The notes below the pieces were generated by a model. It was not told the origin of the DNA and ran no database searches. It saw nothing but the letters and a program-made list of their open reading frames with translations. A stretch of DNA of 49,676 nt, taken from assembly GCA_036397255.1 (NCBI GenBank), contig DASWJH010000108.1:1-49676 (forward strand). The letters run 5' to 3'. Numbering within the stretch: the first letter of the stretch is position 1; each line of letters opens with the position of its first letter. A program made the position numbers and the translations under genes. This DNA is from Nitrospiria bacterium. GTDB taxonomy: Bacteria > Nitrospirota > Nitrospiria > DASWJH01. Shown piece by piece: positions 743 through 42,309 of this stretch.

Positions 743-1402
743 ATGAAAATCAGGAGAAAAGTTTTTTTCTGTGTTTGGCCCCTTCTTTTTATTTTCCTTT
801 TGCCTCCCCATCTATGGGGACATGAGGTGGTGGGAGAAGTTACCCCCCTCATGCTGCACGCAGACCATATCATTACATTTATTAAAAAGGGTAGAGGCGA
901 GGAGGCCGTACGGATGGCCGAGCGGGTGTACGAAGATTTTCAAGAAAACGGACGCATGGGATGGGAGGCAGGTTTAAGAACCAGCAGTATAAGGGTGGAT
1001 GAGACCTACCATTCTACGACCCACGAGATGATTTCCCGTGCCATTGTTGAAAAAAACTCTTCAGGGTTGAAGAAAGGGATTGAATGGCTAAGTTTTCTTT
1101 TAATGCTGGAAAAATTCGATCGCCTCCATAACATGATGGAAAAGGGAACGGTTGCTCTACAAACCCAAATCACTATTTTTTGGTTGGGAAGAAACTATTT
1201 TTCTTATCTGTTGGAGCCCACCATGGGTGAGATTGACCCTATTGAGGAGAAGCGGTTAGACCGCCTCTTGGACCAGATGCTGTACAGCCTGGAAGATAAA
1301 AAATGGGAGCAGTTTAGAAAGCAGAAGAAAGAGTTGATCCAGAGCGTGGTTCGATTTTTTCAGTTTCGCTTGGACCGTGTTATTCCCAAAGAAATGGAAT
1401 GA
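743..1402 (+). CDS. exported protein of unknown function
   Basis: 219 residues. I chose the ATG at 743 because it gives a clean Sec signal: positively charged MKIRRK, a hydrophobic core to about residue 21, then a likely cleavage site near LWG-HE. An upstream in-frame ATG at 683 would lie inside the preceding gene. The mature part is mostly helical and charged, starting HEVVGEVTPLMLHADHI, with scattered His and Met residues but no CxxC or haem motif. I do not recognise the family; a helical-bundle periplasmic protein, perhaps metal-related, is only a guess. It follows the barrel gene closely, suggesting a shared envelope role. Confidence 0.6.
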   Translation: MKIRRKVFFCVWPLLFIFLLPPHLWGHEVVGEVTPLMLHADHIITFIKKGRGEEAVRMAERVYEDFQENGRMGWEAGLRTSSIRVDETYHSTTHEMISRAIVEKNSSGLKKGIEWLSFLLMLEKFDRLHNMMEKGTVALQTQITIFWLGRNYFSYLLEPTMGEIDPIEEKRLDRLLDQMLYSLEDKKWEQFRKQKKELIQSVVRFFQFRLDRVIPKEME

Positions 1403-1646: not shown

Positions 1647-1853
1647 AGGATCTAATTTTTAAAAAACATAATATAAGTTCCATTAAAAAGAAAGAATTTT
1701 CCTCTTTTTAAAAAGAAGGGTTTTTTAGACTTGAAAAACGGGAATCAAAATTACCTATATTTTTCAAATGGGTAGCATTAAAGAAATTTTTTGATTTAAA
1801 AAGGGCTCAAAACTTGCTTTTAGTTGCTGTAAATTGGGGTTTTTTAAAGATTG

Positions 1854-2171
1854 ATGTATAAAAATAATCAAATTAAAAAATACATTTTCCTTTTTGGATT
1901 GGTCTATTTTCTCTTTTCCGGGTTAATAGTTCCCCTTGCCTTGACGCATATGAAGGTCCACAAACAAAAGGCGGACCATGCAGGGCAACATCAAAAACCG
2001 GTTTGTGCCTGGTTTTGTTCTGGGTATATGGCGGCATTTTATGATGATCCAGTTGTTTTAAATCCTTTTACCCCCTCTTTTGAAATCTCGCCTATTGAGG
2101 TTCCGGGTTTAATTAAAAATGCCTATCATGTTGACTTGAGAGTTAGACCCCCTCCCATTTTCTTTTCTTAA
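1854..2171 (+). CDS. small single-pass membrane protein, unknown
   Basis: 105 residues from the ATG at 1854 (a TTG directly before it is also possible); there is no clear ribosome binding site. The N-terminus is lysine-rich, then a hydrophobic segment spans about residues 11-32. A short His-rich stretch follows (MKVHKQKADHAGQHQK), then CAWFC, and the protein ends in a proline-rich VRPPPIFFS tail. The combination of HxxQH, Cys-Ala-Trp and an RxPP tail resembles small DUF2946-like envelope proteins linked to metal handling. That link is a weak resemblance. The upstream 200 bases are very AT-rich. Confidence 0.5.
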   Translation: MYKNNQIKKYIFLFGLVYFLFSGLIVPLALTHMKVHKQKADHAGQHQKPVCAWFCSGYMAAFYDDPVVLNPFTPSFEISPIEVPGLIKNAYHVDLRVRPPPIFFS

Positions 2172-2332: not shown

Positions 2333-2836
2333 ATGATGCCTTTTCTCAAAAAAAATCCTCCAGCGAGGGTTGATAAAAACCGAATTATCCATAACAAGAA
2401 AGGAGTTATTTTTTTAAGCCTGTTGTTTTTGCTTATCTTCCCTCTGGCTACGATCAAGGCGGGGCGAAAGTTGGAAAAACATAACGGCTTTTGCGTCTCC
2501 TGTCACGAAATGGAACATGTTTTAAAAGAATGGCAAGAATCCGGGGCTTCCGAAAAACATCCTGAGTGTATTCAGTGTCATTCCGGACCCGGCCTTTTGG
2601 GGGAGATTGAATCCCAGTGGCGTGGTGTAAAGTTCACAATATCCCATTTTACTCTTCCCTCTGAAAAATTGAAACCGCCCTTTAAAGCAAAGGTTCCCAT
2701 TACCTTCTGCACACAATGTCATTCGAAAGAAAAAATAATTCCGATTCATCGCCGGTTTGATACCCAGGGAAAGCAATGTGCCGACTGTCACAAGCATCGG
2801 GAGGGATGGGAATTCCTAGGAGAGTTGCGTGGGTAA
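2333..2836 (+). CDS. membrane-anchored tetraheme cytochrome c, NapC/NirT-like
   Basis: 167 residues. The ATG at 2333 (or 2336) follows GGAAGAG; a TTG at 2303 would only add ten residues without a ribosome site. One membrane segment lies at about residues 24-41, followed by four c-type haem sites: CVSCH (54-58), CIQCH (79-83), CTQCH (126-130) and CADCH (149-153). Size, single N-terminal anchor and four haems fit NapC/NirT-type quinol dehydrogenases or related nitrite-reductase anchors. These pass electrons from menaquinol to periplasmic partners. The next large gene is an outer-membrane cytochrome-porin, so the pair could form a route from quinone pool to outer membrane, or the reverse; that is inference. 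Confidence 0.8.
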   Translation: MMPFLKKNPPARVDKNRIIHNKKGVIFLSLLFLLIFPLATIKAGRKLEKHNGFCVSCHEMEHVLKEWQESGASEKHPECIQCHSGPGLLGEIESQWRGVKFTISHFTLPSEKLKPPFKAKVPITFCTQCHSKEKIIPIHRRFDTQGKQCADCHKHREGWEFLGELRG

Positions 2837-2858
2837 GAATCCAAAAGGAGAAAAAACA

Positions 2859-2987
2859 ATGGTTATTTCCCCGGGTCTCTTGGGAGAAACTCGTGGATTG
2901 AAATCCCCGTTCCAGGGAAATTTTTATCTGGGAAGGGGAAAATTCCATCACCATATAATTAAGGAGGAATCCTTCGATGAAAGTTAA
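2859..2987 (+). CDS. possible small ORF before the cytochrome-porin gene
   Basis: A 42-codon frame starts at ATG 2859, eight bases after a good AAAAGGAG site at 2843-2850. It ends at TAA 2985-2987, overlapping the first codons of the next gene by 11 bases. The peptide begins MVISPGLLGETRGLKSPFQ and contains HHH near its end. It has no recognisable domain or signal peptide. It could be a translated leader coupled to the downstream gene, or chance. The ribosome site and the stop/start overlap are its only support. Confidence 0.25.
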   Translation: MVISPGLLGETRGLKSPFQGNFYLGRGKFHHHIIKEESFDES

Positions 2988-4329
2988 TGTCGTTGGCTTG
3001 CAGTTGTTGTTTAGTGTTTGTTTGGGAGTGTTCGGTTTAACCCTTTTGGGTTGGAACGTTGAGGAAGCATCAGCCATTCCTGCTTTTACCCGGAAATACG
3101 ATATGGATTGCAGTCATTGCCACACCACACCGCCTCAATTGGCGGAATTTGGAAGAAAATTTAGGGACAATGGGTTTCAAATCAAGGGCCTGGAGAAAGG
3201 ATTGGAACAAGAACTCCAGGACCGGGCGGGTAAAGATGATCCGGAGGACATTCATCCCGCTTATTTTCCATTCTCCATTCGTCTTCAAGATGTAGGGTAT
3301 CAGCTCAACGCCAAGAGCAATCAAGATACCGATGCAGGAGAAAAATCTGTGGATGTTAATTCGTTTGGAATCCGGAACCTTGGGATTATTGCCGGTGGAA
3401 ACCTGATTCCGGGAGTCTCCTTTTTTATGAATTATAGCCCTTCTTTGGAGCATTTATCTTTTGAAGGAGTAGATCAAGAGGGTGAACTGCACCTGGGATG
3501 GGTCAGGTATACCCATCGCCATGAAAGAGGGATGACCAACCTGAAACTCGGGGTCACCGAATTGGATCTGGCTGTCCGTCCTTTGAACCACCAGAGAGCC
3601 ACTACAGCGCCCTATTATATTTTGGAATATGATCCCAGCGGAAAAGGAGGGGGTGTTCTTGGTGAGCACAACTTAGGTTTGGAACTGTTGGGTCGTTACA
3701 CGGACGGTTTCCGTTATGCGATTGCGGTAATCAATGGAACCAAAGCCAAGGCTGATAACAACAGAATCCCCGATCTGTATACCCGGGTTTCTCAGACCCT
3801 CATGGACCAAACTCTGGGAGTCTTTGGCTTGGTTGGAACAGCTCCCACGGAAGAGGATACCTTGGGGGGAGACGATATCCATGGAACCGGAACCAATGAC
3901 GAACCCTATTTCAGGGCCGGGGCAGATTTGGACCTAAATTGCCCCTGCGGTCTTCAGGATCCTATCAATCTGGTAGTATTGTATCTTTACGGTTACGATG
4001 ATCAGGAGCTCTATTCAGGCTCACCCCAGAACGCCCGGTTTCATGGGGGGTTTGCAGAACTGAATCATTTTATGACTGCTTTAAACCTGTTAATCTCCGC
4101 AAGGTATGATACCATCCGCAACCTCAAACAGGGAGACAGCTCCATTTCCAGCGATACAAATGATCTGGATGGCTTTACCATATCTGTACGGCACAATACC
4201 ATTTTTACTAATCGGGTTTCCCTGGTTTCGCATGTGGAGGGCAGTTACAAAAAAACACAGGAAACCTCTCCCAGCGGTCTGGACCAAAATGAAACCACGG
4301 TCTTTGCCGGAGTAGATATTGTTTTTTAA
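2977..4329 (+). CDS. fused cytochrome c-porin of the outer membrane, Cyc2-like
   Basis: 450 residues starting at ATG 2977 behind AAGGAGG. A signal peptide covers about residues 1-33 (cleavage near ASA-IP). A single haem-c motif, CSHCH, sits at 45-49, followed by PPQLAEFGRKFRDNGFQ (52-68). The remaining ~370 residues are beta-rich and end FAGVDIVF, a C-terminal aromatic barrel signature. An N-terminal CxxCH followed by a P-x-L-x-x-FGR-x-F-x-x-x-G segment and a porin barrel is the layout of Cyc2-type fused cytochrome-porins, which take electrons from extracellular Fe(II) or related donors. The electron donor here is unknown. It directly follows a tetraheme anchor protein on the same strand. Confidence 0.72.
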   Translation: MKVNVVGLQLLFSVCLGVFGLTLLGWNVEEASAIPAFTRKYDMDCSHCHTTPPQLAEFGRKFRDNGFQIKGLEKGLEQELQDRAGKDDPEDIHPAYFPFSIRLQDVGYQLNAKSNQDTDAGEKSVDVNSFGIRNLGIIAGGNLIPGVSFFMNYSPSLEHLSFEGVDQEGELHLGWVRYTHRHERGMTNLKLGVTELDLAVRPLNHQRATTAPYYILEYDPSGKGGGVLGEHNLGLELLGRYTDGFRYAIAVINGTKAKADNNRIPDLYTRVSQTLMDQTLGVFGLVGTAPTEEDTLGGDDIHGTGTNDEPYFRAGADLDLNCPCGLQDPINLVVLYLYGYDDQELYSGSPQNARFHGGFAELNHFMTALNLLISARYDTIRNLKQGDSSISSDTNDLDGFTISVRHNTIFTNRVSLVSHVEGSYKKTQETSPSGLDQNETTVFAGVDIVF

Positions 4330-4357
4330 TTAAAAACCTTTCGGTAAAAACCTTCTG

Positions 4358-4389
4358 AACCCAAAGGGGACTAAACTCCCCTTTGGGTT
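4358..4389 (+). terminator. hairpin after the cytochrome-porin gene, probable terminator
   Basis: A perfect 13-bp stem (AACCCAAAGGGGA at 4358-4370 with its complement at 4377-4389) closes a six-base loop 28 bases after the stop. Only three T follow, so termination may be weak or Rho-assisted. Confidence 0.6.
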
Positions 4390-4585
4390 TCCTGGAAAAC
4401 ATTCTCCGGAAAGAGGTAAACGTCTCGTTATATGGGGGGTTTTAGGTTCTTCTAAAGCCGGAAGAATTTTAAATTGAATTTGGGTAAGGAAGAGAAATTA
4501 TTGGGTTTAAATTATGTTTTCCTTCTGCCCGGTTGGGATAAAACTTGCTGATATTTTATAAAAATCCAAAAAAAGGAGGAATCCT

Positions 4586-4981
4586 GTGGCACGTGTAAAA
4601 AAAGGAATGAGGATGGGTTGGCTCTTCGTCTTTCTTTGGATTGTCCCTTCCTGGGCCGGGGAGACCTCGGTGATTATTCTTTCCCCGAGGGAAGGGGAAA
4701 TCCAAAACTCCCAAGATGTAAAAATCGAGGTGAAATTTGAACGAGGGGACAAAGGAGACCACCTTCATTTTTATTTGGATGGGAAATATTTTAAAACCAG
4801 CCGACGGGATTCCACCACACTTTGGGACGTTAAGGAAGGAAAGCATACCATTGAGGTCCGGGCCGCAAGCCGTGAGAAGGATGAAAAAGGCGTTGAGCAC
4901 AAAGAACTGGGACCAAAGGCTTCCGTCAAAATTGAGGTTCAATCTTCAGAAAAGTTAGCAAAACCACAAGGTACACCCTAA
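4586..4981 (+). CDS. small exported beta-sandwich (Ig-like) protein
   Basis: 131 residues from GTG 4586, eight bases after a strong AAGGAGG. A signal peptide ends near residue 24 (WAG-ET). The mature part alternates short strands (SVIILSPREGEIQ, VKIEVKFERG, DHLHFYLDGKYF, GKHTIEVRAAS, ASVKIEVQ), as in immunoglobulin-like or DUF4399-type domains. There are no cysteines and no haem motif; the HLH near residue 60 might bind metal. A hairpin separates it from the cytochrome-porin gene, so it may be a separate transcript. Partner and ligand are unknown. Confidence 0.55.
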   Translation: MARVKKGMRMGWLFVFLWIVPSWAGETSVIILSPREGEIQNSQDVKIEVKFERGDKGDHLHFYLDGKYFKTSRRDSTTLWDVKEGKHTIEVRAASREKDEKGVEHKELGPKASVKIEVQSSEKLAKPQGTP

Positions 4982-14003: not shown

Positions 14004-14660
14004 TTAAGAACTCGTGTGACGGATAATCTTCCCCTCTACGAGGTAAACCACTAACTCTGCCACATTCGTGGCGTGATCGGCCATCCTTTCAAGGTATTTT
14101 GAAACAAACGTAATTCTGACCGCTCGGGCAATGGAGTGAGGGTCTTCAATCATATAGGTTAGCAGTTCCCTAAAAATCTGATGGGTGAGATTGTCAACAA
14201 AATCATCATCCCCGCAAACTTTTCGTGCCAAAGTTGCATCCCGGTTTACAAATGCATCCAACGCCTCTTTGACCATTCCTTGGGCGTGTTCTGCCATTCG
14301 AGGAATATCAATATAAGGTTTTAATTGAGGTTCTTCATTGAGTTCAATGGCCCGTTCCGCGATGTTTTCAGCCAGATCACTCATCCGTTCCAATTCGGTT
14401 GAAATTTTCATGGCGGTGGTGATGAGCCGAAGATCTCCCGCAGTGGGTTGATGAAGTGCGATGAGGCTGAGGCTATCCTCATCGATTTCTACATCCATGG
14501 CATTAACCTTGTGATCGTTTGCAATCACCTCTTTGGCAAGTTCTGAATCTCTTTCAACAAGGGATTTGATGGCATTGGCAATCTGTTCTTCAACCTTTGC
14601 CCCCATCCTGAGGATTTTTTCTTTTAAATCTTTTAGTTCTTCATCAAAACGTCTATGCAT
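14004..14660 (-). CDS. phoU: phosphate-transport regulator PhoU
   Basis: 218 residues, all-helical, with two PhoU repeats. The metal-binding signatures are visible as EIDEDSLSLIA in the first half and the DHATNVAELVVYL helix near the C-terminus, with MSDLAENIAER between. PhoU links Pst transporter activity to PhoR and holds the kinase in check when phosphate is plentiful. It is the last gene of the pst operon, 14 bases after pstB. Confidence 0.95.
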   Translation of the reverse strand: MHRRFDEELKDLKEKILRMGAKVEEQIANAIKSLVERDSELAKEVIANDHKVNAMDVEIDEDSLSLIALHQPTAGDLRLITTAMKISTELERMSDLAENIAERAIELNEEPQLKPYIDIPRMAEHAQGMVKEALDAFVNRDATLARKVCGDDDFVDNLTHQIFRELLTYMIEDPHSIARAVRITFVSKYLERMADHATNVAELVVYLVEGKIIRHTSS

Positions 14661-14674
14661 GGGTCCATCCCACC

Positions 14675-15442
14675 TTAGCCGAATCTTCCTGTAATGTAAT
14701 CTTCTGTTCTACGATCACTCGGGTTTGTAAAAATTCTACGGGTTTCTCCATATTCGATCAGGTGGCCTAAAAGGAAAAACCCTGTTATATCAGAAACTCG
14801 GGCGGCTTGTTGCATGTTATGAGTCACGATTACCACAGTATAATCCTTTTTAATCTCCATCATCAATGCCTCAATTCGGGCAGTGGCAATGGGATCCAAA
14901 GCGGAACAGGGTTCATCCAGTAGGATGACCTCCGGTTCCACCGCCATGGCACGGGCTATGCAAAGTCTTTGTTGCTGTCCTCCCGATAAGGCAAGTGCGC
15001 TTTGATGGAGTTTGTCCTTTACCTCTTCCCAAAGCGCTGCTTGCTGAAGAGCCATTTCGACAATTTCATCTAAATCAACTCTTTTCCGAATTCCGCAAAT
15101 CCGAGGTCCATAAGCGATATTTTCGTAAATGGATTTTGGAAAAGGGTTTGGTTTTTGAAATACCATTCCAATTTTTAGCCGAATCTCCATGGGGTTTTTT
15201 CGGGGTGCATATAAGTTTTCTTTGCCATAGAGAACGTCTCCGGTTAAGCGAAACCCCGGAACAAAATCATTCATCCGGTTCAAACACCGGATAAAAGTGC
15301 TCTTACCGCACCCGGAAGGACCAATGAGTGCGGTGATTTCCTTGCTCCTGATTTGAAAGGAGTTATCTTTTAATACATGGAAGGAACCATACCATGCATT
15401 CAGTTTTATGATTTCAAAGGCGAATGATTCAGGTTCTATCAT
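14675..15442 (-). CDS. pstB: phosphate ABC transporter ATP-binding protein
   Basis: 255 residues from the ATG at 15442; an upstream extension of the frame to 15580 lies inside pstA and is not coding. Walker [10 protein letters not shown], signature [14 protein letters not shown] and Walker [14 protein letters not shown] are complete, and the PstB-specific [19 protein letters not shown] is present. It supplies the energy for high-affinity phosphate uptake through PstA and PstC. The start lies two bases after the pstA stop. Confidence 0.96.
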
Positions 15443-15444
15443 AA

Positions 15445-16329
15445 TTACCAGTGAAGCTTTTTTTGAAAACGGTTTCGGAGCCATATCGCAATGGCATTCA
15501 TGGTTAAAAGGATAAACAAGAGCACCAGAATGGCAGCCGCCGCATTGATGGAAAAGGCGTGCTGAGGCCTGGAAACCCAATTGAAAATCTGAATGGGAAG
15601 TACCGTAAATGGGGCAAATATACTATCGGGTAAAAAAGCGATATAGGTAAGGGCGCCGATCATGATTAAAGGTGCTGTTTCCCCAATGGCGCGGGAAAGG
15701 GCAAGTATGGTACCCGTTAGGATTCCCGGGAACGCTAAGGGAAGGACTTGGTTTCGAATCGTTTGCCATCGGGTTGCCCCCAGGGCGAATGATGCCTCCC
15801 GGATGGAATTGGGAACCGCTTTTAGGGCTTCACGTGAGGCTAGAATGATAATGGGTAGAACCAATAAGGCCATGGTCATGGATCCCGCTAAAATGCTTCT
15901 CTCGAATTTCAATGCACGAACGAAGAGTTCAAGACCCAGCAGACCATAAACAATAGAGGGAACTCCCGCCAGATTGGCGATATTAATTTCAACCAACCGA
16001 TTGAACCAGTTCTTTTTTGAAAATTCTTGTAGATAAATGGCCGCCCCTACTCCGAGGGGAAAAGCGATTATCGCCGTGAGGACAATCATGTATATGGTTC
16101 CAACCGTAGCGGATAGGATCCCTGCCCTTTGGGGCCTTCGGGAGGGGTAGCTTGTTAAAAAATCCCAACTGAGCCTTGTAAACCCATCGATTAGAATCGA
16201 AATCAAGAGGGTCAAAAGGGTTGCTAAGGCCACAAATAAAGCGCCTAGCGCCAATCCGATAAAGATTCGATCAGCCCATTTTCGCTTTGAAAAAAGCTGA
16301 TTTAATTCTTTTGAGGTCAGGGTTTTCAT
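15445..16329 (-). CDS. pstA: phosphate ABC transporter permease PstA
   Basis: 294 residues with about six membrane segments and the MetI-like permease loop ([20 protein letters not shown]) that couples to PstB. It forms the membrane channel with PstC. The ATG overlaps the pstC stop as ATGA, indicating translational coupling. Confidence 0.95.
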
Positions 16330-17234
16330 TCATAAACCTCCCGATACCGTTCCCGAAGCCAATGACTGGTGAGGTTTAAAAGGAAAGTCCCTAAAAAAAG
16401 GGTCATTCCAACAGCAAAAATGGTTTTATATTCAATGGTCCCATGAGGGGTATCTCCCAGGCTCACCTGAACAATATAGGCAGTCATGGTTTCGATCGGT
16501 ACGAATGGATCTAATGTTAATCTAGGTTGTTGTCCAGCGGCTATGGTTACAATCATTGTTTCACCGATGGCTCGGGAAATGGCAAGGATGCAGGCCGCAC
16601 TGATTCCTGAAAAAGCCGCGGGGAATACCACCTTTAATGCCACTTGTAACCGGGATGAACCTAAGGCATAGGCTCCTTCTCTGAGGCTTTTGGGGACTGA
16701 AAACATGGCATCTTCACTGAGAGATGAAATCATGGGTGTGATCATAATTCCCATCACAATTCCTGGCCCCAATGCATTAAATCCGGATAATTGAGGGATC
16801 AGATTTTGCAAAAGGGGGGTCACAAAAAGAAGAGCGAAATAACCGTATACCACAGTGGGAATTCCAGCAAGGATTTCCAAAACGGGTTTAATGGTTCTTC
16901 GCAGAGCGTCTGAAGCGTATTCACTTAAAAATACGGCGCTCAATAACCCAATGGGCATGGCGACCAACATGGCAATGAGGGAGACCAGAAATGTTCCTGT
17001 AACGAGGGGCCAAATTCCAAAATGTTTATTGATAAAAAGGGGGGTCCACTGGGTATCCAGAAAAAATTGACTAAAGGAAACTTCTCTAAAAAAATGAAAG
17101 GTTTCAAAGAAAAGGACAAAAATAATTCCAAGGGTGGTCAAAAGGGAAAGAACCCCGCACAGGAAAAGAAAGGACTGAATGATCTTTTCCCCCAAAAGGT
17201 TTTTTTTCCTGCGCAGGGCGATTGCTTTTTGCAA
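16326..17234 (-). CDS. pstC: phosphate ABC transporter permease PstC
   Basis: 302 residues with six predicted membrane segments and the permease loop [20 protein letters not shown]. The best start is a TTG at 17234 preceded by GGGGAG about 11 bases upstream; no ATG gives a complete first membrane segment. It pairs with PstA to move phosphate inward. It starts 23 bases after pstS. Confidence 0.94.
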
Positions 17235-17257
17235 ATAGGTGGGTACTCCCCTGGATG

Positions 17258-18280
17258 TTAGTTGGATTCACGGAGGAGGGAGTTCAATGATTTTCCAACC
17301 GATCCCTTCCCCTCATAAACTGAACCTAGCCTTCTTTCCTTCACACGGGAATCTACCATTTTTCTGATCGATTGGGGAAGAGAAATATAGCCCACTTCTT
17401 CGGCAAGGGCAGGTCCTTCTTGGAGATAAAAATCCACAAATTTTTTCACTTCGGGTTTTTTTAAAGAACTCTCACTGACATAAATAAAAAGGGGTCGGGC
17501 CAAATAATAAGACCCATCCTCCACGGTTTTGTGAGAGGAAGCGATTGGACCGTTCCCCCCATCAATGGGCACCAATTTTAGTTTACTTTTGTTTTCCTCA
17601 TAGTATGCGAGACCAAAATAACCCAGGGCATAAACATCATTCGCAATCCCTTGAACCAGGATATTGTCGTCTTCACTGGATGTAAAATCCCCCCGGCTGG
17701 ATTGAGATTTACCCATAATCGCTTCTGTGAAATAGTCAAAAGTGCCGGAATCTACACCCGGGCCAAAGAGATGAATTTCCTTTTTTGGCCAATGGGGGTA
17801 AATTTGATTCCAATGGGTGACTTTTCCTTGAGCATCGGGTTCCCAAATTTTCTTAAGGTCGGAAATGGTCATCTGTTTGACCCAATCATTTTTAGGGTTT
17901 ACGACAACGGCCAGACCATCATAGGCAACGGGAATTTCGATGTATTGGATACCGTTTTCCCCGCAAAGTTTAATTTCCTTTGTTTTAATGGGCCGAGAGG
18001 CATCGGTAATGTCTGTTTCCCCGCGGCAGAATTTTTTAAACCCACCTCCGCTTCCGGAGATTCCCACGGTAACACGGGAAGATCGATTTTTGATCTGAAA
18101 TTCCTCTGCAACGGCTTCGGTAATTGGGTAAACCGTACTGGAGCCATCTATTTTAATGAGGTCCGCTCCAGTTGCTATTTTGGGAGAAAGAGTAAAAAGA
18201 AAGGCCAGCGTGATCCCCATGAGCCCTGCTTTAAGAACAAGGGGGGAATTATATAACTTTTGTGTGTCTGAGTTTAACAT
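17258..18280 (-). CDS. pstS: periplasmic phosphate-binding protein PstS
   Basis: 340 residues; the signal peptide runs to about residue 38 (ATGADLIKI). Phosphate-contacting motifs are visible: [35 protein letters not shown] and [12 protein letters not shown]. It captures phosphate for PstABC. A strong AAGGAG precedes the ATG at 18280, and a phased Pho box ends 32 bases upstream of the ATG. It is the first gene of the pst operon. Confidence 0.96.
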
Positions 18281-18311
18281 GGTTTATTCTCCTTGCTAGG
18301 TTAGAGGTACA

Positions 18312-18351
18312 TTGTTAATTTAATGTTACGGGAATGTAAAATCTATGTTAC
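18312..18351 (-). promoter_or_regulatory. Pho box of four 11-bp-phased repeats upstream of pstS
   Basis: On the minus strand four seven-base units follow each other at exactly 11-bp steps: GTAACAT (18345-18351), TTTACAT (18334-18340), GTAACAT (18323-18329) and TTAACAA (18312-18318). PhoB/PhoP-type regulators bind direct repeats with one-turn (11 bp) phasing, and phoB lies in this window at 25322-26017. The array ends 32 bases before the pstS ATG, leaving room for a -10 element. No such array is seen before the porin gene. Confidence 0.75.
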
Positions 18352-18358
18352 GGTTCCT

Positions 18359-19480
18359 TTAGAAATAACCAATCAGATCGACCTGAAGGCGGTCAATATC
18401 ATCCTTGGGTTCTGAAAGGGCTTCTGTTGAAAAAAATTTCACCTGGGTTTTTAAAAAATCAAAAATACGGTAAGCTCCCCATACAATGTGCCCCTTTCGG
18501 TTTAGACCTCCATCACCGAAATCGGAATCGGATATATCGGCTAAAGTTGCATCTGTTTCTACACGCTTAAAAAAATAAGCAACCTCCCAGTCTTTTGCTT
18601 TTTTGGCTTTTCCAAGAATAACGCCAACCTGATATCCGTCATTACCGGTTCCAGTTCCGGCCGCGTTCACGGTATCTGTTAAATTTTTGATATAATCACC
18701 TCCAACACTGACCGGTAAACCACCTATTTTTGTTTTAACCACACCGGTGACATCCAGGGTGCGGTATTCATTGATTAGTACGCCGCTTCCGTCCCTTGAA
18801 TTTCCATCCAAGGTGCTTGCCTGGCTTAGGGTACTTTGGGTGGCGTTATCCGTTACATAGTAAGCAATAGCCAATGTGGCCTCCGTATTCTCTACAAGAT
18901 CAAGGGTGAGGCCGACTTGTTGACCGAACATCCACTGATCCTTGTTGGACCCGGAATCCTCATCCAGAACAAATTGGCCCAAATTCACAAAAATCTCACT
19001 TCCGATGGGAAAAGAAAAGCTTTCAGAAAACCCTTCGGGATTAACATCCGAATCCCAGACAATGTCCGTTGAATAGAAGGTAAAGAAAGGAATGGCCATT
19101 TTTCCTCCGGTGAGTTTCAACCATTCGGTGTTAGCCCCTTTCCAGGATAGGTAGGCTCTGTCCAGAAAGATATCCTTTGATGAGAAAAGGTTGTCAAAGG
19201 TCTGATTGGTAGAGGTTTGATCAGCGCTGCCACTGGCAATGCGGATTCCAGCCGTGAAATCACTTATTTTAAATTTGGTTTCCACCCGGAGCCTTAGCCG
19301 TTGACGATGGCGATCCTGATCGGGATTTTTCCAAAAGGACTCATGTCTAAGGCGAAGATCCCCTTTCAGTTTTATTTCATCAACGAAATCGGAGAATTTT
19401 AAATCGGTTGCCCCAAGCACTGGAATATGGACAATGCCCAGAGCCAATAATGTCATTAACATTGAAATTTTTCTCTTCAT
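18359..19480 (-). CDS. putative porin, possibly phosphate-linked
   Basis: 373 residues. The signal peptide ends near residue 23 (VLG-ATD). The mature part is beta-rich, with a KLKGDLRLRHESFW strand early on and a C-terminal DRLQVDLIGYF ending in the aromatic barrel signature. It resembles the Porin_5-like 'putative porin' family. Its stop is seven bases from the Pho box of pstS, so it lies just upstream of the pst operon on the same strand. A role in phosphate passage across the outer membrane is inferred from position only. A GGAG ribosome site precedes the ATG. Confidence 0.75.
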   Translation of the reverse strand: MKRKISMLMTLLALGIVHIPVLGATDLKFSDFVDEIKLKGDLRLRHESFWKNPDQDRHRQRLRLRVETKFKISDFTAGIRIASGSADQTSTNQTFDNLFSSKDIFLDRAYLSWKGANTEWLKLTGGKMAIPFFTFYSTDIVWDSDVNPEGFSESFSFPIGSEIFVNLGQFVLDEDSGSNKDQWMFGQQVGLTLDLVENTEATLAIAYYVTDNATQSTLSQASTLDGNSRDGSGVLINEYRTLDVTGVVKTKIGGLPVSVGGDYIKNLTDTVNAAGTGTGNDGYQVGVILGKAKKAKDWEVAYFFKRVETDATLADISDSDFGDGGLNRKGHIVWGAYRIFDFLKTQVKFFSTEALSEPKDDIDRLQVDLIGYF

Positions 19481-41469: not shown

Positions 41470-42309
41470 ATGTATGCATGTAATGCTATTGAGGAATTAT
41501 TATATCCTTATTTGGATGGAGAGCTTGATGTTAAAGAGGTCATTCGGGTTCAATCTCATCTAAAGGCCTGCCGCGGTTGTAGGGGTCGTTACCGTTTAGA
41601 AAAAGAATTTTTAGACTGTTTTAAAGAATCTTACCATCAGGTCCAACCAGAAATTCCTTCCGATATTCGACATGAAATTTTAAGAACAGTGGCATCTAAA
41701 GCATCCACTTCCGCAGCCGGTGGGGTTTTTAAAAACCTAGGGTCTGTATTGGCCTTTGCGGCGGTGATTCTTTTGGTTGTGGGATTCGCTTTTTCCTTTC
41801 AACCACTAAAGAAAGATGATGTCCCGGAGCTGGTCCGTTCCGCTGTCAATCATCATCAAGGTTATGTGGATGGCAGTGTTCATTTGGATTTTCAAGCCAT
41901 TGAACCGCAAGAAGCTACCTCATGGTTTAAACATAAAGTGGGGTTCCCTGTTCAACTTCCCTCCGCGTTGCCTGAAAACCTTTCCCTCGAGGGAGGAAAG
42001 ATTGGGCCTTCGGAGACACTACAATTGGCTCTTTTGGCTTATGATCTGGAGGGACAAAAAGTTTCCTTGGGGGTAACCGCCTCTTCCTATCCTAAACGGA
42101 GTTTGGAGAAAGGAGGAATCCCTTTTGACGGCCTTATTTTTTATCCAAAAAAATACAAAGGGTTCCATACCATTAGTTGGAACCATGACGGTTTGAGTTA
42201 TATCCTTGTTTCAAGTGACCCTGAACGGGTTAAACAGGCCTGTGTGGTTTGCCATGGAACCCCCCGTGGTTTAAAGACGGTGGAAGGTTTTATTGGAAAA
42301 AAGATTTAA
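41470..42309 (+). CDS. zinc-finger anti-sigma factor with a periplasmic haem-c motif
   Basis: 279 residues. The N-terminal ZAS domain has His30, Cys34 and Cys37 (HLKACRGC), which bind zinc and clamp the sigma factor. A membrane segment lies at about 91-110, giving a cytosolic N-terminus and a periplasmic C-terminus. The periplasmic part has GFPVQLPSALPENLSLEGG and WNHDGLSYILVSSDPE, a pattern seen in other anti-sigma factors, and near the end a CVVCH at 258-262. CxxCH on the periplasmic side is what the cytochrome c maturation system recognises, so a covalently bound haem is possible. It follows its sigma gene without a gap. Confidence 0.88.
   Translation: MYACNAIEELLYPYLDGELDVKEVIRVQSHLKACRGCRGRYRLEKEFLDCFKESYHQVQPEIPSDIRHEILRTVASKASTSAAGGVFKNLGSVLAFAAVILLVVGFAFSFQPLKKDDVPELVRSAVNHHQGYVDGSVHLDFQAIEPQEATSWFKHKVGFPVQLPSALPENLSLEGGKIGPSETLQLALLAYDLEGQKVSLGVTASSYPKRSLEKGGIPFDGLIFYPKKYKGFHTISWNHDGLSYILVSSDPERVKQACVVCHGTPRGLKTVEGFIGKKI

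Follow-up and report, generated by a model that had tools for sequence, protein, structure and literature searches.

The 450 aa product of the cytochrome-porin gene in the window (the whole stretch of DNA analysed here, 49,676 nucleotides from a Nitrospiria bacterium) is best classified as a Cyc2-like fused cytochrome-porin, an assignment supported by its motif, its length, its predicted barrel fold and a profile match. Judged by its sequence, it is a divergent addition to an already known family. The tetrahaem cytochrome gene that lies upstream does not form a conserved pair with it. Its steadiest neighbour is a small gene for an Ig-like protein, a new candidate accessory of the clade to which the cytochrome-porin belongs. 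The features are collected in Table 1. Below, G numbers denote genomes of the class (G000 is the window's own) and C numbers the contigs within a genome.

Table 1. Features of the window discussed in the text
Feature	Position	Strand	Basis
Family 24: putative outer-membrane barrel, truncated by contig start	1..732	+	no Pfam match
Family 25: helical secreted protein, invariant His-Glu at predicted mature N-terminus	743..1402 (also given from 683)	+	
Small secreted or membrane protein, His-rich stretch, CAWFC	1851..2171	+	no Pfam match
Tetrahaem c-type cytochrome, NapC/NirT-NrfH superfamily	2333..2836	+	ORF, haem motifs, PF03264, NrfH matches
Cyc2-like fused monohaem cytochrome-porin, 450 aa	2977..4329	+	motif, alignment, AlphaFold2, Foldseek, profile match, tree
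Cytochrome region AIPAFTRKYDMDCSHCHTTPPQLA: Cyc2 signature with one A-to-T, haem-c site CSHCH, PXL	3073..3144	+	
14-pair hairpin just 3' of cytochrome-porin stop, no T run	4357..4390	+	fold of 4330-4470, sequence
Small secreted Ig-like protein, PF06832-like, invariant DHxH and EHK	4586..4981	+	PF06832 30.6 bits vs cut-off 26.8; alignment

The cytochrome-porin gene starts at an ATG that is preceded by an AGGAGG ribosome-binding site. Its product begins with a signal-type segment, carries its only CXXCH, the CSHCH site, at residues 45-49 and the segment FGRKFRDNGF at residues 58-67, and ends in F; the CSHCH, the FGRKFRDNGF segment and the terminal F had been read likewise in the initial annotation. 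One CxxCH arose by chance in 0.14% of shuffles of its residues, and the longer Cyc2-type motif occurs a single time in the six-frame translation of the window. Keffer et al. defined Cyc2 by the signature AXPXFAR[Q/K][T/Y], a CXXCH, a PXL, a minimum length of 365 aa and a porin barrel of 16 strands resembling OprO and OprP (PMC8406198). The N-terminus of the window protein reads AIPAFTRKY-DMD-CSHCH-TTP-PQL. It thus agrees with the signature at six of the seven specified positions, T replacing A, and has PQL as the PXL four residues after the CXXCH; the length also lies above the minimum. The FTRK form is common to G011:C95 and G005:C6, and the sister sequence G003:C18 carries the exact signature. 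A strict filter based on the published motif would drop the window protein because of the T. In an alignment of 28 sequences from the class the residues A33, P35, F37, K40, C45, C48, H49, P53, L55, G59 and F62 are invariant.

Neither Pfam nor NCBIfam has a model that recognises the cytochrome-porin, Pfam searches with 27 aligned relatives gave chance-level matches only, and PDB sequence searches with the protein and its profile returned nothing relevant. The AlphaFold2 model computed from the 28-sequence alignment is a barrel (pLDDT 82, pTM 0.80). Its top Foldseek matches are 16-strand porins, including OprP (2o4v, E 9e-10) and OprO (4rjw, 3e-8), the structures that Keffer et al. matched to Cyc2 (PMC8406198). 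The porin-like barrel that had been proposed is thus upheld by the prediction, and the nearest folds are 16-stranded. DSSP lists 17 strand segments in the model against 16 in the matched porins, so that the strand number of the window protein is approximate. The cytochrome part was modelled at low confidence (means of 44-74 for 10-residue blocks, residues 31-80), and the model contains no haem.

Profile comparison with hhalign linked the family of the class to plasmid-borne proteobacterial Cyc2-type proteins (98.5%, E 2e-15), and the window clade alone was linked to them at 96.8% (E 2.3e-10); these references include no named, biochemically tested Cyc2. The similarity is limited to 55-111 N-terminal columns, that is the cytochrome part and little more, and homology of the window barrel to Cyc2 barrels is suggested by the predicted fold only. 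These references are cytochrome-porins found by tblastn on plasmids of Caballeronia and Methylocystis, with the motif form ARQTG, and of Ideonella, with NRQTG. They adjoin c-type cytochrome genes, and one sits between HiPIP and c-type cytochrome genes. Like Cyc2 of Acidithiobacillus, Cyc2-PV1 of Mariprofundus and Cyt572 of Leptospirillum (PMC8406198, PMC7029218), the window protein combines one N-terminal CXXCH, a near-identical signature and PXL with a length in the 400-500 aa range and a predicted 16-strand-type porin resembling OprP/OprO. It differs from them in the T of the signature, in a barrel that cannot be aligned by sequence, and in its surroundings, where rusticyanin, cyc1 and HiPIP genes are absent and the steady neighbour is the Ig-like gene. 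The Cyc2-like fusion claimed in the initial annotation is therefore borne out by motif, length, predicted barrel and proteobacterial profile match; within the fold prediction and the comparison with the plasmid-borne proteins, neither the lack of a barrel nor a placement far outside Cyc2, which would have spoken against it, was found. With the MtoAB and MtrCAB-OmcA conduits it would share electron transfer across the outer membrane. Unlike in these, one haem is here fused to a small barrel, and an OmcA/MtrC-type cluster lies separately on contig C15.

Matches to the cytochrome-porin family were present in 44 of 58 genomes of the class, the window's own included (E at most 0.001). The own genome has three cytochrome-porins, on C108 (the window), C5 and C20. 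In the tree the window protein belongs to a six-member clade (support 98/96) with G003:C18, G011:C95, G011:C60, G005:C6 and G005:C19. A scan of genome contigs for the cytochrome-porin yielded one relative only, the same as G011:C60. When a clade profile was run over 270 genomes of the class, the members scored 660-725 bits and the next match 336, and no further close members were found. Nitrospirota homologues of Cyc2, for example those of Ca. Manganitrophaceae (PMC9040806), probably belong to the same class-wide family and likewise occur in genomes with bd-like terminal oxidases, whereas the window clade turned up in no families of the class other than f1, f4 and f6. Cyc2-like genes serve as markers of iron oxidation, yet their function in Nitrospirota is mostly untested.

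The tetrahaem gene starts at ATG 2333 or TTG 2303. Its haem sites CVSCH, CIQCH, CTQCH and CADCH all follow a single N-terminal hydrophobic segment (residues 35-53 numbered from 2303; mean Kyte-Doolittle 2.4). Four CxxCH were seen in none of 100,000 residue shuffles, and for both cytochromes chance is an unlikely source of the haem patterns. PF03264 (NapC/NirT) scored 30.2 bits against a cut-off of 24.1 and was also recovered in the whole-genome search, the best NCBIfam model was NrfH (1e-11), and the sole PDB relative was again NrfH (2j7a_C; phmmer, E 3e-5). The earlier reading of a tetrahaem membrane anchor with four CxxCH behind one membrane segment thus holds, and the anchor is of the NapC/NirT-NrfH type. 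With NrfH, NapC, CymA and ImoA, the tetrahaem quinol dehydrogenases, it has in common one transmembrane segment, four CXXCH, a PF03264 match above cut-off and the haem-1 motif CXXCHXM, which is kept in its eight strong relatives aligned. Unlike NrfH and NapC it stays far under the cut-offs of their models (45.1 vs 134.2 bits for the NrfH model TIGR03153), and neither nrfA nor any other multihaem ORF besides the tetrahaem gene is found in the window. Opposite Lys82 and Asp89, the quinol-site residues of NrfH, the window protein has Q and F in a single pairwise alignment with 2j7a_C. Near these positions an Arg-Gly is invariant among the tetrahaem relatives. Judged from its family, quinone chemistry is likely for this protein.

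The initial annotation had also suggested that the tetrahaem protein and the cytochrome-porin, as a pair, may form an electron route between an extracellular donor and the quinone pool; a dedicated pair is not supported by comparison with other genomes. Six of eight strong tetrahaem relatives (E at most 3.2e-38) lie in a gatB-eno neighbourhood (G003:C80, G005, G009, G011, G014 and G016; the gene names are our own reading of the sequences), one (G003:C22) adjoins an 11-haem ExtM-like cytochrome, and one (G003:C18) has a cytochrome-porin at a distance of 5.7 kb. In families f4 and f6 the relatives are 44-56% identical. The window copy joins the G003:C22 copy in the tetrahaem tree, and not that of G003:C18, with moderate support (88/87). 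At all other cytochrome-porin loci examined, the surrounding 1.5 kb contained no tetrahaem relative. The preference for gatB-eno in families f4 and f6, the grouping with the copy beside the 11-haem cytochrome and the lack of close cytochrome-porins elsewhere all argue that the two genes are unrelated neighbours and that the tetrahaem protein has a general quinone-linked role. We put the chances of this reading, which concerns the pairing only and is compatible with the others considered below, at slightly short of even. It has to contend with the second case in G003:C18, even at that distance, and with the arrangement in the window itself, where the genes share a strand and are separated by a gap of 140 bases. 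In this gap (2837-2976) no terminator-like site or unusual folding was found; a terminator between the two haem genes thus has no support, and their co-transcription is possible. Rough arithmetic gives a chance adjacency of about 0.002 in the window and about 0.06 in G003, which suggests that the adjacency is not pure accident. The case is a warning against taking the adjacent tetrahaem gene for a fixed Cyc2-to-quinone wire.

Of the six clade members, four have the Ig-like gene directly downstream of the cytochrome-porin, and it accompanies no cytochrome-porin locus examined outside the clade. Four close copies were aligned and have DHxH, EHK and other residues in common. Between the cytochrome-porin and the Ig-like gene, the 4330-4470 region folds with a z of -4.30, and none of 200 shuffles folded as well; the hairpin in it is a possible terminator or a stabiliser of the mRNA 3' end. 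At two of the six clade loci, that of the window and G005:C19, the cytochrome-porin is preceded by families 24 and 25. Family 25 is rare, being present in 10 of 267 genomes, and its His-Glu opens the predicted mature chain in all 10 aligned sequences. Family 25 loci comprise a barrel gene and often a gene for a small membrane protein with HTFHxHxHG. The AlphaFold2 model of family 25 is helical (pLDDT 83.5), and a fold search of the PDB gave no match at E below 1e-3. In G042 a gene similar to that at 1851-2171 precedes the module of families 24 and 25, and a cation-efflux (CDF) gene comes after the module.

It might be thought from these neighbours that the cytochrome-porin serves metal handling and not respiration, and that it would act with the Ig-like protein, with families 24 and 25 and with the His-rich CAWxC protein in sensing, oxidising or detoxifying copper or another metal. 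The invariant His-Glu of family 25, the invariant DHxH of the Ig-like protein and the CDF gene in G042 are consistent with this, as is a gene resembling a P-type metal ATPase near the cytochrome-porin on C5 of the own genome. However, the metal binding is only what we infer, and among the six clade loci families 24 and 25 accompany the cytochrome-porin only at the two named above. We regard this explanation as unlikely.

The genome that carries the window is 97.5% complete. It has no match to COX1 and none to RuBisCO. It contains three bd-like oxidase proteins, with monohaem cytochrome c genes adjoining, and just two molybdopterin-family (PF00384) matches. Both of the latter appear to be NuoG proteins encoded in complex I clusters, and a molybdenum enzyme such as nitrate reductase supplying the acceptor was therefore rejected. 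For Ca. Manganitrophaceae, Cyc2 and bd-like oxidases have been proposed to act in metal oxidation (PMC9040806), and the respiratory make-up of the own genome resembles theirs. Without COX1 and a molybdenum nitrate reductase, the genome offers a concrete parts list for testing. A candidate extracellular electron-transfer cluster, as judged from sequence, is located on C15 (4257-10408), where a decaheme cytochrome of the OmcA/MtrC family (TIGR03507, 436 bits) is in a row with a 430-aa protein that matches nothing in Pfam, with proteins carrying seven, four and one haem, and with a NapC/NirT protein. On C64 (164-1975) there is an 11-haem ExtM-like cytochrome whose upstream side is lost at the contig end; on G003:C22 such a cytochrome comes after the tetrahaem relative of the window gene.

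The explanation that we consider best, and somewhat probable as a whole, is a Cyc2-like cytochrome-porin with inward electron flow from a small dissolved donor. A barrel of about 16 strands would span the outer membrane, and where it opens to the periplasm it would carry the small N-terminal cytochrome c domain with its one haem. The donor, most likely Fe(II) although other metals are possible, would enter the pore and give up one electron to the haem. Cytochromes of the periplasm would take over this electron and deliver it either to bd-like terminal oxidase complexes or, uphill, to the quinone pool. The Ig-like protein would probably be a periplasmic accessory, perhaps a metal-binding one. 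The tetrahaem NapC/NirT-type protein would act as an inner-membrane quinone/quinol oxidoreductase; it may be co-expressed in the own genome, but the cytochrome-porin would not depend on it as a partner. What the analysis shows is the motif, the predicted fold, the family match, the clade with its conserved neighbour and the oxidase set of the genome. We infer the localisation, the donor, the direction, the link to the tetrahaem protein and every electron-transfer step. Inward flow is plausible and is favoured because the Cyc2 proteins that have been tested oxidise Fe(II), because one haem fits a donor in solution (PMC8406198), and because bd-like oxidases are present. Points against the explanation are the T in the signature, the confinement of the sequence similarity to the N-terminal columns, the missing RuBisCO match and, as to direction, the possible iron reduction assigned to cluster 3 Cyc2 by FeGenie and the quinol oxidation by ImoA, the NapC/NirT protein found in an iron oxidiser.

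Outward flow, in which the tetrahaem protein would oxidise quinol and the cytochrome-porin would pass the electrons to Fe(III) or another acceptor outside the cell, is improbable to a slightly greater degree than metal handling. NapC/NirT proteins usually do oxidise quinol, ImoA doing so in vivo, and cluster 3 Cyc2, rated by FeGenie as probable for iron oxidation and possible for iron reduction, occurs also in iron reducers; the genome moreover lacks COX1 and has its decaheme cluster with a NapC-type protein of its own. But that cluster could already carry out reduction, a single-haem porin would be a poor conductor to solid acceptors, the tested Cyc2 oxidise Fe(II), and the bd-like oxidase proteins make O2 a possible acceptor. 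The least probable proposal, which we mention as a long shot, takes the window clade as a Cyc2-type system in its own right, in which the Ig-like protein would be a dedicated partner in the periplasm and which in some genomes would include a module for metal handling (families 24 and 25 with the CAWxC protein). The metal that this system oxidises would not be iron, and the electrons would go to bd-like oxidases or, via the tetrahaem protein, to the quinone pool.

Two further loci of the window deserve mention. On the minus strand (14004-19480) phoU-pst genes are followed by a porin-like gene for 373 aa (18359-19480), which may encode a phosphate porin. On the plus strand (41470-42309) a zf-HC2 zinc-finger anti-sigma factor gene adjoins an ECF sigma gene. 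Close to the C-terminus of the anti-sigma factor, in what should be its periplasmic part, CVVCHG may be a haem-c site, and the protein is perhaps a redox-sensing anti-sigma factor.
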